From: Alphaproteobacteria bacterium
Lineage (GTDB): Bacteria > Pseudomonadota > Alphaproteobacteria > Rhizobiales > Rhizobiaceae
NCBI GenBank assembly: GCA_024742485.1
Contig: JANSYK010000001.1
Span: 744,001 to 808,000, forward strand
Direction of reading: 5' to 3'
Length of the DNA stretch: 64,000 bases
The translations under genes and the position numbers were made by a program. Every line of letters begins with the position of its first letter. Positions within the stretch are counted from its first letter, which is position 1. The notes beneath the pieces are model-generated. The model worked only from the letters and a program-made list of their open reading frames with translations, did not search any database and was not told where the DNA came from. Below are positions 20,961 to 27,647 of the stretch, in pieces.

Positions 20961-21647
20961 TCAAGACTGTTGCGCGGTGCCATCATTCGGAGCGCTGAGC
21001 AGCCACTTGCAAAGCAAATGCGCCAAAAAAGCGCCCAGAAGCTGTACCAGCACGAAGGGAATCACGTCCTGAGGCCGGATTCCTGCGAAACTGTCTGAAA
21101 AGCCACGTGCGATCGTCACGGCCGGGTTGGCAAAGGACGTCGATGCAGTGAACCAATAGGCGGCGGTGATATAAAGACCGACGGACATTGCCACCGCTCT
21201 CTCATTGGCCTTGATCGTCGCCAGGATCGTGAAGACAAGTCCGAAAGTGGCAACAGCCTCCGCAAACCACTGTGCGGATCCGGTGCGGGCCTTTTGTGAA
21301 AATTGCAGCACATCCAGATCGAACATGAGGTGTGCCGCCCAGACGCCAACCAGACCACCGGCAATCTGGGCCGCAACATAGGCCGCCGCCTTTCCCGGTG
21401 ACAGGGCACGGCGCAGCGCAAAAACCATGGTCACGGCCGGATTGAAATGGGCACCGGAGATCGGCCCGAGCATGGTGATCAGCACCACGAGTATCGCGCC
21501 TGTCGGAATGGTGTTTCCGAGCAGCGCAATCGCAACATTGCCACCGGCAAGCGCTTCGGCCATGATGCCGGAGCCCACAACCGTCGCAAGCAGAAATGCG
21601 GTTCCTATAAATTCCGCCCCGATCTGTCGGCTCGTTTCTTGCTGCAT
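20961..21647 (-). CDS. MIP/aquaporin family channel
   Basis: 228 residues from the ATG at 21647, with GGGGAG about 9 nt upstream. Six membrane helices and two NPA boxes, HFNPAVT and FANPAVT, which define aquaporins and glycerol facilitators. The closest style I recognise is AqpS, an aquaglyceroporin that moves arsenite in Sinorhizobium, but no ars genes are adjacent, so water, glycerol or another small neutral solute is equally possible. It is divergent from the ferredoxin-domain gene over 314 bp. Confidence 0.88.
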   Translation of the reverse strand: MQQETSRQIGAEFIGTAFLLATVVGSGIMAEALAGGNVAIALLGNTIPTGAILVVLITMLGPISGAHFNPAVTMVFALRRALSPGKAAAYVAAQIAGGLVGVWAAHLMFDLDVLQFSQKARTGSAQWFAEAVATFGLVFTILATIKANERAVAMSVGLYITAAYWFTASTSFANPAVTIARGFSDSFAGIRPQDVIPFVLVQLLGAFLAHLLCKWLLSAPNDGTAQQS

Positions 21648-21961
21648 ATGGTTGATCTCCCCATCCGGCTCCATTCATCCGTACCGGCCGCGTCGACGAT
21701 ACAGCCGCCACTGTGACCCGTGTAGAGAGAACCCTCACCTGGGCAGGTGATATTACGGTTTTGTGACAATTCGATAACACCACGTTGGACACCGAACATC
21801 ACCGTTCCACCATTTAAAGGGCGGCACCTTGTTTCCGAACAGAAATGGCCATCGGGGAACATCGCATACGGCATTCGGACGGTCCGTCAGTCAGGAAAAA
21901 GAGATTTGACCTGCCGTGAGAAACGCTCCAAGAATGGCGCCAAACTGGACAGGATGGGGAT
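21648..21961. other. Intergenic region between aquaporin and ferredoxin-domain genes
   Basis: 314 bp without a supported gene. It contains a perfect palindrome, TCACCT-GGGC-AGGTGA, at 21735-21750, 88 bp upstream of the aquaporin start. This could be an operator or a short hairpin. No tRNA or riboswitch-like fold was recognised, and no clear sigma-70 promoter could be chosen by eye. Confidence 0.4.
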
Positions 21962-23146
21962 ATGGTCCGAAATCTGAGAATGCTGAGTGGAACGGTGCTT
22001 TTCGTTTTCGTCACGCTCCATCTGCTGAACATGGCCTTTGGTCTCATATCCATCGACGCAGTTGAAACCGCCCGGACCTATCTGACGGCGCCGTGGTCCT
22101 ATGGGCCGGTTTTCGTTCTGCTGATGATTTCGATGATCGTCCACATGGTCCTTGGACTCTATTCGCTTTATCGCCGCAGCACGCTGAGAATGTCGGGATA
22201 TGACGGCAGTCAGCTGATCTTTGGTCTCCTGATCATGCCTCTGCTGGCGTCTCATATCGTTGGGATCTACGCCACGAAGTACATTTTCGAGGCCGATCCG
22301 ACATATCGGCTCATCTTGAGCGTGTTCTGGGTCAGTTCTCCGCTTGAAGGACTTCGCCAGGTCTTCGTCGTGGTGGTGGTCTGGGTCCATGGCATCATCG
22401 GAATTTTCAGTTGGATGCGGATCAAACCGTGGTGGGAGCGCGTGTCGTGGTTCATCTATCCGCTGATCGTTGCCGTCCCGGTGGTTGCGCTGCTCGGCTT
22501 TGTCGATGCGGGCAATCAGGTGATTGCCGAAGCCGAACAGGCCGCGCAGGAATATGCAGCCTATGTGGAAACGGAAGAAACGGAAGAGGAACTGAGCGAG
22601 GACGAGCTGCGCGCGGAAGAAGAAGCCGCAGAAGAGCGGCGCGCGCTCAACAATGAACGGTTCGCGCTGACCTATTTCATTTTGTGGATGGTGCTCGCGG
22701 TTTACGCCGCAATGGTGGTGATAACACTTGCCTTGCGGGCCTGGCGGCTGCGGTCACGAAGCCAGCGGATGGCAACGATCAACTATGTGGATGGCCCGAC
22801 GGTTGAGGCGAAGGTCGGTCTCAGCCTCTTGGAAATGTCACGCATCAACGAGGTCGCACATGCCAATCTGTGTCGCGGCCGAGGCCGCTGCGGCACCTGC
22901 CGCGTGCGGGTAGTCGAATCGGAATCTGAGCTGAACAATCCGTCTACTGTAGAGGTGGCAACCCTTGCTCGCCTCGGCTCGCCGCAGGATGTCCGGCTGG
23001 CCTGTCAGATCTGTCCCCAGGCCGGTTCGCTGACAGTCGAGCGGCTGGTGTCGCCCGATATCGCACCGCGTGACATGGTTTTGAACCAGAAGGCTGAAGC
23101 CAGAGCCAGGACAGGCGCGCCGGCCCCGGAGATGGCAGATGCCTGA
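21962..23146 (+). CDS. Six-helix membrane protein with C-terminal 2Fe-2S ferredoxin domain (CyaC-input-like, no cyclase)
   Basis: 394 residues. Five hydrophobic helices lie within residues 8-184 and a sixth at about 235-260. Four carry a histidine well placed for heme or quinone binding: H20, H61, H98 and H143. A highly acidic loop (about 189-229) separates helices 5 and 6. The C-terminal domain has the ferredoxin pattern C304-x5-C310-x2-C313-x34-C348, so it should bind a 2Fe-2S cluster on the cytoplasmic side. The same layout precedes the cyclase in redox-responsive adenylate cyclases such as CyaC of Sinorhizobium meliloti; here the protein ends without one. The stop overlaps the start of the MscS gene by 8 bp. 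Confidence 0.8.
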   Translation: MVRNLRMLSGTVLFVFVTLHLLNMAFGLISIDAVETARTYLTAPWSYGPVFVLLMISMIVHMVLGLYSLYRRSTLRMSGYDGSQLIFGLLIMPLLASHIVGIYATKYIFEADPTYRLILSVFWVSSPLEGLRQVFVVVVVWVHGIIGIFSWMRIKPWWERVSWFIYPLIVAVPVVALLGFVDAGNQVIAEAEQAAQEYAAYVETEETEEELSEDELRAEEEAAEERRALNNERFALTYFILWMVLAVYAAMVVITLALRAWRLRSRSQRMATINYVDGPTVEAKVGLSLLEMSRINEVAHANLCRGRGRCGTCRVRVVESESELNNPSTVEVATLARLGSPQDVRLACQICPQAGSLTVERLVSPDIAPRDMVLNQKAEARARTGAPAPEMADA

Positions 23147-25574
23147 TATGACTGCAAATTTGCGTGTGGCCAGGTCACTGATCGTGGCAACCATCTTGCT
23201 GTTTTTCGCCATCGGCTCGGCTGGAGTTTCACAGGCGCAGATGATTCCCGGTGCACCGGCACCGCAAGCCGAGCCGGAAGCCGAGCCCACGCCCCCCTCG
23301 CCCAACGACATTCGTGAATTGATGCGTCTGCTGGCCGATCCCAGCGTGGTTGTCTGGCTCCGCTCTCAAGGCGAGCAGATGCTGGACGGGGAATCCGGCT
23401 TTGACGACAGTGAAAGCTTTCAGGAGGAACTGGCCGAGCGTGTGGAAAGAACCCGCCTCCGGTTGACCAGCCTCGCGATCAGCTGGCGCAACCTGCCCGC
23501 CGCACCGGCCTTTTTGAGCGAAGCCTGGCAGGAACAGGTGACCAGTGACCAGACTTTGCGCAGCATCATCTATGTGGTGATTTTCCTGGTCATCGGCAGC
23601 GGTCTTGAGTGGCTGTACCGGCAATACACGCTGCAACCGATGCTGCGACTGGAACTCAACAAATCAACTTCACTGAGCCACCGGCTGAACGCGGCCGTTC
23701 TGCGTGCCGTCCTTGTCTTTGGCGGCCTCTTGATCTTCTCGATCGGGACGATTGGTGCATTTCTCAGCTTCACCTGGCCCAGCTTCGTCGAGAACATCGT
23801 TCTGAACCTGCTGACCATCGTCATCACCATTCGCGTTGCCTCCACCGTATCCATGTTCTTTCTGGCGCCACGTGTGCCCGAACTCAGGCTTGTCCCGCTG
23901 AGCAGCGCGTTGGCAAGACCATTGCATTATTGGTTGGTGCTGATCGCGTCCATCGGCGTCATTTCCTTCAGTGTGACGGATGTCTTCGTCCATCTGGCGG
24001 GGAATACGGATGCGCTGGGCGCGACACTTGCCGTCGCGGTTGGCACGGGTGCAGCGTTGGCCGTTGCTGTCATCCTGGCCGTATGGCACCTGTCCTGGAT
24101 CATCGGCAAACGTTCGCTGCGTGAAGACGCGATTGTCTCAAGCCGGCGACTGAAATTCTGGCCGGGCTACCTGACCCTTTTGACGGCTGCAACCTGGTGC
24201 CTGTGGCTGCTCAGCGCCACGGAGCTGATGTGGACCGTCATCATTCTGGGTCTGCTGTTCCCGGTCACGCGCCTGCTCAATGGTTGGATCGACTATTTCT
24301 TTGACGAGGCGGAGGCCAAACACGAGCCCGAACAACAGGAGAATTTCGAGCCCGAGGCCGTCGAAGCGCCACCGATAGTGCCGGTAGCAGAGGCAGCGCC
24401 GGCTGACGCTGGTGTCGGTGCCGATGGACCACTTGAGCAGACGGCCGTCGCTGAGCCTGGATCCATCACACCGGTTGAGCCCACGCCAGCCGAACCCGAA
24501 GGGGCAGAAGAGGAAGAAGAGGCGGTCAGCGCGCTTGAACTCTATCGACCGGTTGCCCGCCGTTTTGTCCGGTTCGTCGCGGTCCTGTGTGCAATATTTG
24601 CTTTGCTTGCCGCCTGGGGCGGCAATATTTTCAGCCTGTCGGAATCTCAGACCTTTTCCGGGCGGTTCGTTGGCATACTGGCCGATATCATTACGGTGCT
24701 GCTGATTGCCGATCTGATCTGGATCTGGGCAAAATCCGCGATAGACCGGCGACTGGCGAATTACGTGCCGCCGCAGGGCAGCGAAGCCCCTGGCCCTGAG
24801 GCAAGAATGGCGACATTGCTGCCAATCCTGCGGGTCACCCTCATGGTGACACTGATCGCCATCGTCATCATGACGATCCTGGCGTCCATGGGCATCAATG
24901 TCGGACCATTGCTTGCTGGCGCCGGCGTAATCGGCATAGCCGTCGGCTTTGGTGCGCAGGCGCTGGTCAAGGATATCGTGTCAGGAATTTTCTTCCTGAT
25001 CGATGATGCCTTTCGCATTGGTGAGTATATCGAAGTGGGCAGCCTGCGCGGTACGGTGGAATCCATGTCGATCCGTTCTTTGCGGGTCCGTCATCATCTT
25101 GGCGCTATCCACACAATCCCGTTTGGTGAGCTGACATCACTGACCAACTACAGCCGCGATTGGGTCATCATGCGGCTGGAGTTCCGGGTGCCCTTCGACA
25201 CCGATCTGAAACTGGTCAAGAAAATCGTCAAGAAAATCGGTGCCGAATTGCAGGAAAACGAGGTCTATGGCGACGGCATCATCCAGACGCTGAAATCCCA
25301 GGGCGTGCGGCGTATGGAGGAGTTCAACATGGTGGTTGGCGTGAAATTCATGGCCAAGCCCGGTTCCCAGTGGCTGGTGCGGCGTGATGCCTATCAAAAA
25401 CTCCGGGACGCGTTCGATGCCAATGGCATCAATTTTGCCCAGCGCAATGTCACCGTGGAAGTCCTCGGCGACCAACCGCTTGGCGAGGAAGCCAAGAAGG
25501 CCATCGCCGGGGCGGCGCAGAATGCAGTCGACTCGGCCGCCGGTCCGCCACAGCCGGTTCCAGACGAGCCCTGA
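23139..25574 (+). CDS. Large MscS-family mechanosensitive ion channel
   Basis: 811 residues, far longer than the minimal MscS of about 285. A signal-like N-terminus ends near SQAQM, then a periplasmic stretch, several membrane helices, and an acidic Pro/Glu/Ala-rich linker at about 388-465. The conserved channel module follows from about 560: pore helix VGPLLAGAGVIGIAVGFGAQ, then LVKDIVSGIFFLIDD, FRIGEYIEV and the beta domain IPFGELTSLTNYSRDW. It would open under membrane tension during hypo-osmotic shock. Its ATG lies inside the end of the ferredoxin-domain gene, so translational coupling is likely. Confidence 0.92.
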   Translation: MPDMTANLRVARSLIVATILLFFAIGSAGVSQAQMIPGAPAPQAEPEAEPTPPSPNDIRELMRLLADPSVVVWLRSQGEQMLDGESGFDDSESFQEELAERVERTRLRLTSLAISWRNLPAAPAFLSEAWQEQVTSDQTLRSIIYVVIFLVIGSGLEWLYRQYTLQPMLRLELNKSTSLSHRLNAAVLRAVLVFGGLLIFSIGTIGAFLSFTWPSFVENIVLNLLTIVITIRVASTVSMFFLAPRVPELRLVPLSSALARPLHYWLVLIASIGVISFSVTDVFVHLAGNTDALGATLAVAVGTGAALAVAVILAVWHLSWIIGKRSLREDAIVSSRRLKFWPGYLTLLTAATWCLWLLSATELMWTVIILGLLFPVTRLLNGWIDYFFDEAEAKHEPEQQENFEPEAVEAPPIVPVAEAAPADAGVGADGPLEQTAVAEPGSITPVEPTPAEPEGAEEEEEAVSALELYRPVARRFVRFVAVLCAIFALLAAWGGNIFSLSESQTFSGRFVGILADIITVLLIADLIWIWAKSAIDRRLANYVPPQGSEAPGPEARMATLLPILRVTLMVTLIAIVIMTILASMGINVGPLLAGAGVIGIAVGFGAQALVKDIVSGIFFLIDDAFRIGEYIEVGSLRGTVESMSIRSLRVRHHLGAIHTIPFGELTSLTNYSRDWVIMRLEFRVPFDTDLKLVKKIVKKIGAELQENEVYGDGIIQTLKSQGVRRMEEFNMVVGVKFMAKPGSQWLVRRDAYQKLRDAFDANGINFAQRNVTVEVLGDQPLGEEAKKAIAGAAQNAVDSAAGPPQPVPDEP

Positions 25575-25595: not shown

Positions 25596-26342
25596 TCACG
25601 CAGCGTCGTGAAAGATGATCCCCAAAACATGGCGTTGGCCGCTCAAAACCCGGCTTACGCCATGGCGCATGCGAACCCGGTACACCCCGCGCTTTCCGAT
25701 GACCGGACGCTCATTGACGGCAAAAACAACCGCCTCGCCAAGACCCAACGGTATGACCTCGACCCTTGACTGCATGCGCGGTCGCTGCTCGGTCAAAATG
25801 AACTCGCCGCCTGAGAAATCCGTTCCCGGTTCCGACAGCATGATTGCCACCTGCAATGGAAAAACGTGATCGCCGTACAGGTCCTGATGCAGACAATTGT
25901 AATCGCCGACACCATAGCGCAATAAAAGTGGCGTCGGGTGGCACTGACCAGCCTCGTGGCAGCGGTCAACAAACGCCTTATGATCTTTGGGAAACCAGTC
26001 GTTCCGACCGAGCATCTCCAGCCAGGTATTGGCAACAGGTTCCAACCGTCCATAGAGCGTTTGCCGCAACGCGGTGACGAGTCTCGGCAGCGGATCGGCG
26101 AAGTATTTATACTCTCCCCGTCCGAAGCCATGTCGTGCCATGTCGATATGACTGCGATACCATGCGTCCTCATCGAACCATCGGCTCACAGACTGGCATG
26201 TCGTCGGGTCAAGCAAAGGGCCGATCGCTGCAAATCCGCGCTCCAGCAGAGCTTCGGAGTGCCGGCCCCAATCGACGTGATCGAGGCTGGATAATTCGCA
26301 ATCAATGTCCCTGTCGCCGGCCGTTACCGCCGGCCCGCTCAC
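25596..26342 (-). CDS. 2OG-Fe(II) oxygenase, ada-linked
   Basis: 248 residues. The iron ligands of the 2-oxoglutarate dioxygenase fold can be seen: HQD at H152 and D154, then H227 with R231 four residues on as the likely 2-oxoglutarate-binding residue (RHGVSRV). The ending RHVLGIIFHDA is characteristic of a group found next to ada in many alphaproteobacteria. A DNA alkylation repair role like AlkB is suggested by that linkage, yet it is not a close AlkB relative and the substrate is unknown. Its ATG overlaps the ada stop by 4 bp, so the two are translationally coupled. Confidence 0.85.
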   Translation of the reverse strand: MSGPAVTAGDRDIDCELSSLDHVDWGRHSEALLERGFAAIGPLLDPTTCQSVSRWFDEDAWYRSHIDMARHGFGRGEYKYFADPLPRLVTALRQTLYGRLEPVANTWLEMLGRNDWFPKDHKAFVDRCHEAGQCHPTPLLLRYGVGDYNCLHQDLYGDHVFPLQVAIMLSEPGTDFSGGEFILTEQRPRMQSRVEVIPLGLGEAVVFAVNERPVIGKRGVYRVRMRHGVSRVLSGQRHVLGIIFHDAA

Positions 26343-27421
26343 GCCGCCGCCTCGCGCGAAAGAAGCGCCCTTTTGCGGTCAACACCCCAGCGGTATCCCG
26401 AGACATCGCCGTCAAGACGTACGACCCGGTGACACGGGATGGCAACGGCGATCCGGTTGGCGCTGCATGCCTGCGCGACGGCACGAACCGCTGAGGGCTT
26501 TCCAATCGCCTTGGCAATGTCGGTATAGCTGACTGTCTTGCCAGCCGGAATCGCCCGCAATGCAGCCCATACCTGGTGCTGAAACGCCGTGCCGCGAATA
26601 TCCAGCGGCAAATCAAGTTCACCATGCGGTTCTTCTAGGTAACCAATGACCCTGGCCACCAGTCTTTCGAAGGCCTCATCGCCACCGATGAGATCAGCCT
26701 GCGGAAAACGGTCCTGCAACGATGCCAGCAGCTCAGCGGCATCCGAGCCTAGATCGATGGCACAGACGCCCTTGTCGGTCGCGGCGACCAGCACGGAACC
26801 GAGTGAGCACTCCCCAATGGCGAATTTGATCTGTGTATCACGTCCACCATCACGAAATTGTTTGGGACGCATTCCCAGTCGGCTGGTCGACTCCTCGTAA
26901 AAACGACTGCTGGCATTGTATCCGGCGTCAAAGATCGCCCGTGTGACGCTCGCACTTCCGACCAGTTCTCCGCGCAGTTTTTTGACCCTTGCGGCGGCAG
27001 CATAAGCTTTCGGCGTGACACCGGTCACCGATTTGAAAATTCGATGAAAGTGGTATCGGCTCACACCTGCTGCCTTCGCCAGAACTTCGAGGCTTGGAGG
27101 CTCCTCAGCCCCCTCGATCATACGGCATGCATGTGCGATCATCTCAGCCCTTTGTACGGCTTGACCCTGTTCATTGGGACGGCAGCGTTTGCAGGCCCGG
27201 AACCCCGATTTCTCGGCATCCGATGGATCGTCGAAATAGACGACGTTTTCACGGCGGGCAGCCTTCGATCCGCAAGACGGCCGGCAATAGATGCCAGTGG
27301 TCGTCACGCCATAGACAAAGGTGCCGTCAGCCTTTTCACTGCGCTGCTCGACCGCGAGCCAGCGCTCGGCATCACCAGACGAGGGATTGGTGGTGTTCAT
27401 GTCGGTGGATATCTCAAACAT
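26339..27421 (-). CDS. ada: Bifunctional regulator / O6-methylguanine-DNA methyltransferase Ada
   Basis: 360 residues from the ATG at 27421, preceded by GAGG; a start at 27400 is also possible. The N-terminal zinc domain has the four-Cys pattern (YCRPSC and ACKRCRP) that accepts methyl groups from phosphotriesters, which turns Ada into an activator. An AraC-type helix-turn-helix follows (SRYHFHRIFKSVTGVTPKAY). The C-terminal methyltransferase domain ends with the suicide-acceptor motif PCHRVV. It repairs O6-methylguanine and induces the adaptive response, presumably including this operon and the coupled 2OG oxygenase. No Ada box was picked out by eye. Confidence 0.95.
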   Translation of the reverse strand: MFEISTDMNTTNPSSGDAERWLAVEQRSEKADGTFVYGVTTTGIYCRPSCGSKAARRENVVYFDDPSDAEKSGFRACKRCRPNEQGQAVQRAEMIAHACRMIEGAEEPPSLEVLAKAAGVSRYHFHRIFKSVTGVTPKAYAAAARVKKLRGELVGSASVTRAIFDAGYNASSRFYEESTSRLGMRPKQFRDGGRDTQIKFAIGECSLGSVLVAATDKGVCAIDLGSDAAELLASLQDRFPQADLIGGDEAFERLVARVIGYLEEPHGELDLPLDIRGTAFQHQVWAALRAIPAGKTVSYTDIAKAIGKPSAVRAVAQACSANRIAVAIPCHRVVRLDGDVSGYRWGVDRKRALLSREAAA

Positions 27422-27647
27422 TTTGGACCTCAAATCGCAAGACATTCATCATTTCGGTCAATCTATGCTGGTCAGACGGGTCCCACACCCCGTCCCTTGC
27501 TCTTGAATTCGAGCTTTGTCCTTGAAATTTGTTTCGGCTGCCGCAGTTATTCACGGCAGTCACGATTTCACCTGCTCATGAGATCGTGAAATGCACATAT
27601 TTCGATTCCATGTATGATGCCCGCATCGAACCAACAGAGGGATACAG

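Follow-up and report, generated by a model that had tools for sequence, protein, structure and literature searches.

Mechanosensitive channels are usually viewed as tension-gated safety valves, and we know of no regulator for many of the large bacterial members of the MscS family. What a redox protein might have to do with such a channel is the question raised by a locus in a 64,000-nucleotide stretch of a Rhizobiaceae genome (assembly GCA_024742485.1, contig JANSYK010000001.1, positions 744,001 to 808,000), referred to here as the window. The gene for a membrane protein with a 2Fe-2S domain, P1, overlaps the start of the gene for a large MscS-family channel, P2. An earlier interpretation made from the letters of the window (the sequence-only reading) had described both open reading frames, their 8-bp overlap and the 2Fe-2S and MscS domains, all of which were confirmed by the reading frames and by Pfam (Table 1). 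It had also proposed that the two genes are expressed jointly and that the redox protein and the channel work together, and both proposals are now well supported on comparative grounds, by conserved adjacency, gene overlap and co-occurrence. We consider it probable that P1 and P2 form one unit, in which a membrane redox sensor would control an MscS-type channel and the redox state of quinone would tune its gating. The comparisons below are best read as the input module of the cyclase CyaC having been re-wired from a cyclase to a channel.

The anchor of P1 has six predicted membrane helices, recognised as hydrophobic segments, which carry four histidines. The C-terminal domain (residues 277-353) matches Pfam Fer2 at 9.6e-10, and Cys304, Cys310, Cys313 and Cys348 are its putative [2Fe-2S] ligands; from the six helices and the positively charged loops this domain is predicted to lie on the cytoplasmic side. 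For the membrane part neither Pfam nor NCBIfam has a curated family that scores above its cut-off, and no cyclase domain was found by Pfam in P1, which ends at residue 394. A search of the source genome with P1 (E <= 0.001) returned P1 itself as the only match, and thus no cyclase-fused copy was seen there. P1 aligns with CyaC of Sinorhizobium meliloti (CP090106.1) with 34% identity over 381 residues (E 1.3e-65), and in this alignment His20, His61, His98 and His143 as well as the four cysteines of P1 are all in register; the four histidines of the membrane half had gone unmentioned in the sequence-only reading. Both proteins have a six-helix anchor with four histidines followed by a 2Fe-2S domain with four cysteines, but CyaC runs on into a cyclase domain (Pfam Guanylate_cyc) whereas P1 stops after the 2Fe-2S domain and an MscS gene comes next. 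CyaC has been described as a six-helix protein with two hemes b that can be oxidised or reduced by ubiquinone and contains a [2Fe-2S] cluster (PMC10463352). The P1 anchor, too, probably holds two b hemes on its four histidines. The same anchor type is seen in a cluster of 30 ferredoxin-associated class IIIb adenylate cyclases. Their anchors are likened to the cytochrome b subunits of fumarate reductase and succinate dehydrogenase, and two hemes are predicted for them from four spaced intramembrane histidines; these proteins are defined as cyclases, and a channel output is not mentioned in the accessible passages of that paper (PMC4821796).

Table 1. Features of the P1-P2 locus, in positions of the window. 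Pair proteins are stand-alone modules with an adjoining MscS gene; fused rows are modules joined to a further domain.
Feature	Position	Strand	Details
P1, stand-alone CyaC-type redox module, no cyclase	21962..23146	+	394 aa, ATG start; Fer2; six hydrophobic segments
His20 codon, putative heme b ligand, helix 1	22019..22021	+	32/32 pair proteins, 54/55 fused rows
His61 codon, putative heme b ligand, helix 2	22142..22144	+	32/32 pair proteins, 55/55 fused rows
His98 codon, putative heme b ligand, helix 3	22253..22255	+	32/32 pair proteins, 54/55 fused rows
His143 codon, putative heme b ligand, helix 4	22388..22390	+	32/32 pair proteins, 55/55 fused rows
2Fe-2S domain of P1, residues 277-353	22790..23020	+	Pfam Fer2
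8-bp overlap, P1 stop and P2 start	23139..23146	+	in-frame 8-bp overlap in 7/8 genus members
P2, MscS-family channel with long N-terminal part	23139..25574	+	811 aa, ATG start; Pfam MS_channel domains
MscS core of P2, residues 570-766: pore helix, beta domain, C-terminal domain	24846..25436	+	PF21088, PF00924, PF21082

Genome sets that overlap one another were searched with P1 or with a profile of pair proteins, and P1-type matches were found in all 8 genomes of the genus, in 164 of 394 genomes of the family (E <= 1e-20), 117 of 397 of the order (E <= 1e-8), 112 of 385 of the class and 34 of 299 of the phylum (both E <= 1e-30), and at E <= 1e-40 in three other families (11 of 100, 4 of 5 and 15 of 39 genomes). 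Most matches listed sit in frames of 550-730 residues, as long as a cyclase fusion would be. As candidates for stand-alone modules we took all 41 genomes with a frame of less than 500 residues among the matches listed; 33 have a true stand-alone module and 8 do not, figures that for the order and the family hold among the matches listed, as weaker modules may be missed. The eight comprise G648 and G985, where the frame runs into a cyclase start cut by the contig end; G999, with an in-frame cyclase cut N-terminally by the contig start; G1054, where a cyclase start is present and the frame ends 116 bp before the contig end; G848, G1115 and G1483, with cyclase sequence in a broken frame; and G294, which lacks the 2Fe-2S domain. 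The G294 locus (L042:5653-6729) encodes a six-helix anchor relative of P1, preceded by a gene that looks CobW-like. Plasmid-borne stand-alone modules were looked for in 3 of the 30 plasmid matches listed for P1, and all three read as cyclase fusions. Loci L074 and L075 repeat the contigs of L037 and L038, and each contig was counted once. In G1485 (L177) the N-terminal part of P1 is missing at the contig start; this locus is among the 33, and the tree, ligand and neighbourhood sets comprise the other 32.

Among the matches listed, each of the 33 true stand-alone modules is followed immediately, on the same strand, by an MscS gene. All eight genomes of the genus carry the pair, source genome included, and the association exceeds what chance would give. 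The 33 genomes fall into the family of the window (27, again with the source) and three further families (3 in f50, 2 in f112 and 1 in f74), all of one class. In these three families the P1 proteins show 34-40% identity, so the adjacency is not confined to very close relatives. Cyclase-fused modules behave differently. At 20 such loci, hand-chosen for spread, no MscS gene was found within 3 kb, and the same test was positive at 31 of 31 pair loci; there was likewise no P2 match at 56 fused loci with mostly shorter flanks, a set that counts two genomes twice and overlaps the 20. Conversely, a channel matching P2 at E <= 1e-100 occurs in 15 of 199 family genomes, and in all 15 it adjoins P1. Three genomes (G087, G150 and G198) each hold, apart from the pair, a further copy of the module in a longer frame; in G150 the two lie ~9 kb apart (L205:2674-15468).

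A tree of 87 modules, built with a quick method, contains a branch that splits the 32 pair proteins from the 55 fused rows, with a Shimodaira-Hasegawa-like approximate likelihood ratio (SH-aLRT) support of 100. The positions that mark the pair group include D81, W158, P167 and, in the cluster-binding loop, G311, which is serine in 52 of the 55 fused rows; these markers would fit a changed output surface near the cluster. A cyclase motif is found in 52 of the fused rows, and in a 53rd (L023), which reads as a cyclase, the motif is a variant one. Of the remaining two, L043 appears to be a degenerate cyclase, while the C-terminal domain of L031 is a different one. In the latter (L031:1471-3024, genome G289) the six-helix and 2Fe-2S module is fused to a domain unlike either a cyclase or MscS and without a Pfam match at E <= 1, possibly a third output of the module. 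The four histidines and four cysteines are all present in the 32 pair proteins, and each of them in at least 54 of the 55 fused rows (the cysteines in all 55). This conservation bears on the idea that P1 is a subunit needed to assemble or stabilise the channel, with cofactors that serve a structural role or are relics and do not signal. An obligate subunit would account for the strict pairing and the gene overlap as well as a sensor would; eight ligands without a single change in 32 of 32 proteins, at identities as low as 34%, do not look like relics, however, and relatives of P2 manage without such a neighbour. We regard this explanation as quite unlikely.

The three MscS domains of P2 (PF21088, PF00924 and PF21082) all score above the Pfam cut-offs. 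The N-terminal part has a signal-like segment and several extra membrane helices, recognised as hydrophobic segments. The best NCBIfam match is PRK11465 (NF008542), which we take to be the model of Escherichia coli YbiO, with 191.7 bits under a cut-off of 596, which places P2 outside that equivalog. Large YbiO-like members share with P2 the combination of an MscS core and a long N-terminal membrane part, but P2 lies far below the YbiO cut-off and is paired with a redox module; we know of no such partner for YbiO. The solved chains nearest to P2 by sequence are 9go3 and 7a46, and the best match in the PDB has an E value of 1.6e-43. No conserved cysteine was found in P2, and its conserved His652, His653 and His658 are also frequent in other MscS proteins (17, 13 and 14 of 20 rows, respectively), so nothing in P2 marks an electron acceptor.

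The overlap between the two genes is itself conserved. The bases common to P1 and P2 (23139-23146) are ATGCCTGA, and an in-frame ATG, GTG or TTG, with MscS starts read from the sequence, overlaps the P1 stop at 30 of the 33 loci, by 8 bp in 7 genus members and by 4 bp (ATGA, GTGA or TTGA) in 23 others. Of the three loci without overlap, L084 has an ATG 2 bp and L090 a GTG 68 bp past the P1 stop. The third, L079, is the eighth genus member (G399), where MscS is not in the frame of the ATG found at the P1 stop and has its nearest in-frame start in a TTG 29 bp further on. Around positions 4971-5008 of L079 the usual 8-bp overlap is thus out of frame, and a TGA lies inside the P1 match, which may be a real change or a sequencing error. 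P1 and P2 may well be translationally coupled, as their arrangement suggests. Flanking genes are common within groups of pair loci and mostly not between groups; the 32 loci resolve into 10 neighbourhoods when a single flanking gene in common is enough to join loci and into 16 when two are required. Since the neighbourhoods differ to this extent, the pair itself is what is kept.

An overlap speaks at most for coupled translation and not for contact, and the two proteins could simply be co-expressed for one physiological purpose, for example in envelope or respiratory stress, with the signals or electrons of P1 going to another partner. Such an account would be in keeping with the existence of MscS relatives that have no adjoining P1 and with the missing mark of an electron acceptor in P2. 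It fits poorly with a listed set of stand-alone modules that pairs with MscS without exception across all these neighbourhoods, and with a module that is elsewhere covalently joined to its output, as the fused cyclases illustrate, and we consider it unlikely.

In the sensor-channel unit that we favour, P1 would correspond to the input half of a CyaC-like protein. Its anchor would exchange electrons with the respiratory quinone pool, probably by way of two b hemes on the four histidines, and would relay the redox state to the [2Fe-2S] domain at the cytoplasmic face. The channel encoded by the overlapping gene would take the place of the fused cyclase as output, and the redox state of quinone, through the [2Fe-2S] domain, would alter the opening of MscS. 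Ion venting when the pool is over-reduced and adjustment of turgor are candidate purposes. Contact of P1 with quinone, physical contact between P1 and P2 and gating by redox state are what we infer from these comparisons. The most specific version, in which a diheme-b/[2Fe-2S] subunit reads the quinone pool and directly opens or closes the MscS pore, seems possible to us and is offered tentatively. The sequence-only reading had suggested that the pair senses the redox state of the envelope; the respiratory quinone pool is the better-fitting signal, given that CyaC is the relative that has been characterised and that the [2Fe-2S] domain is placed in the cytoplasm by prediction. Information could also flow the other way, with membrane tension or ion flux through the channel altering P1 as an electron-transfer enzyme. 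The layout of anchor and 2Fe-2S domain would suit quinone-linked electron transfer, too, and the data would be compatible with either direction. Yet Pfam shows neither a dehydrogenase nor a flavin or NAD domain in P1, and the NCBIfam matches of P1 fall on the ferredoxin part, far under cut-off. CyaC, the closest characterised relative, uses the module as an input according to the accessible passages of PMC10463352, and the reversed direction appears very improbable.

Several observations weigh against a redox-gated unit. Relatives of P2 at ~50% core identity occur in Azospirillum and Ruegeria without a P1-type gene annotated beside them, and pair genomes hold further MscS paralogues; the channel type therefore needs no module in general. 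No fusion of the module with MscS, which would have pointed directly to contact, was found among the long open frames checked (G060, G097, G932 and G1132): the first two are cyclase fusions with spurious frame extensions, and neither of the other two loci has an MscS match. The lack of any feature in P2 that would point to an electron acceptor counts here as well. The hemes and cluster of P1 are assigned from their ligands alone, and its anchor has no sequence match to any solved structure. When solved chains were searched with a profile of 29 pair proteins, all matches fell within the 2Fe-2S part or beside it (50 distinct sequences, E <= 0.1), and the succinate dehydrogenase and fumarate reductase cytochrome b anchors among the solved chains gave no detectable sequence match to the P1 anchor. 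In a tree of MscS cores the partners are spread over a main group of 25 (support 99), a second group of 6 (support 100) and one unsure row, L039, so that the partner label needs three changes; deep joins of this tree are unsure because of long branches. Either one pair has diverged far, or the module may have taken up a second channel type. The pairs look like one old pairing rather than independent events. The distances of P1 and P2 are correlated (r 0.90 for 25 pairs and 0.77 for 32, with 0 of 999 permutations as high), a result that could also be expected from vertical descent alone. At one locus (L095:3179-8948, genome G463) an MscS gene, the redox module and another MscS gene stand in a row on the same strand, and the upstream MscS groups with other paralogues and not with the downstream partner.

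CyaC-type sensors and MscS channels are each of a known kind, and what would be new is a sensor that has a channel as its output. No ferredoxin- or CyaC-like partner of MscS was found in the titles or abstract beginnings of papers returned by searches of open-access literature, outside of which most subscription journals lie. In Arabidopsis mitochondria, the MscS homologue MSL1 has been linked to the redox state of a respiring membrane (PMC7757850). There the link is physiological, and the accessible passages do not describe a redox-sensor subunit. If our reading is right, a conserved respiratory-redox sensor subunit would provide a metabolic input for an MscS channel, the CyaC input module would be a portable redox sensor able to drive different outputs, and in bacteria the state of electron transport would be coupled to membrane leak or turgor.

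The surroundings of the pair in the window show some further features. Upstream, an aquaporin gene of the MIP family (20961-21674) diverges from P1, with 287 bp between them. In this gap no FNR-type box was found at two mismatches or fewer; over the whole window there are 39 such matches against 29.4 expected, a number reached in 4 of 100 shuffles. At locus L038 a gene that looks ArsC-like stands between the aquaporin and P1, and on this account the aquaporin of the window may be of the arsenite type. Downstream (25596-27445), a gene for a 2-oxoglutarate-Fe oxygenase of the DNA repair type (PF09859) overlaps an Ada gene by 4 bp, and the two are likely an alkylation-repair pair. Both of these gene families flank the P1-P2 pair at all eight loci of the genus.

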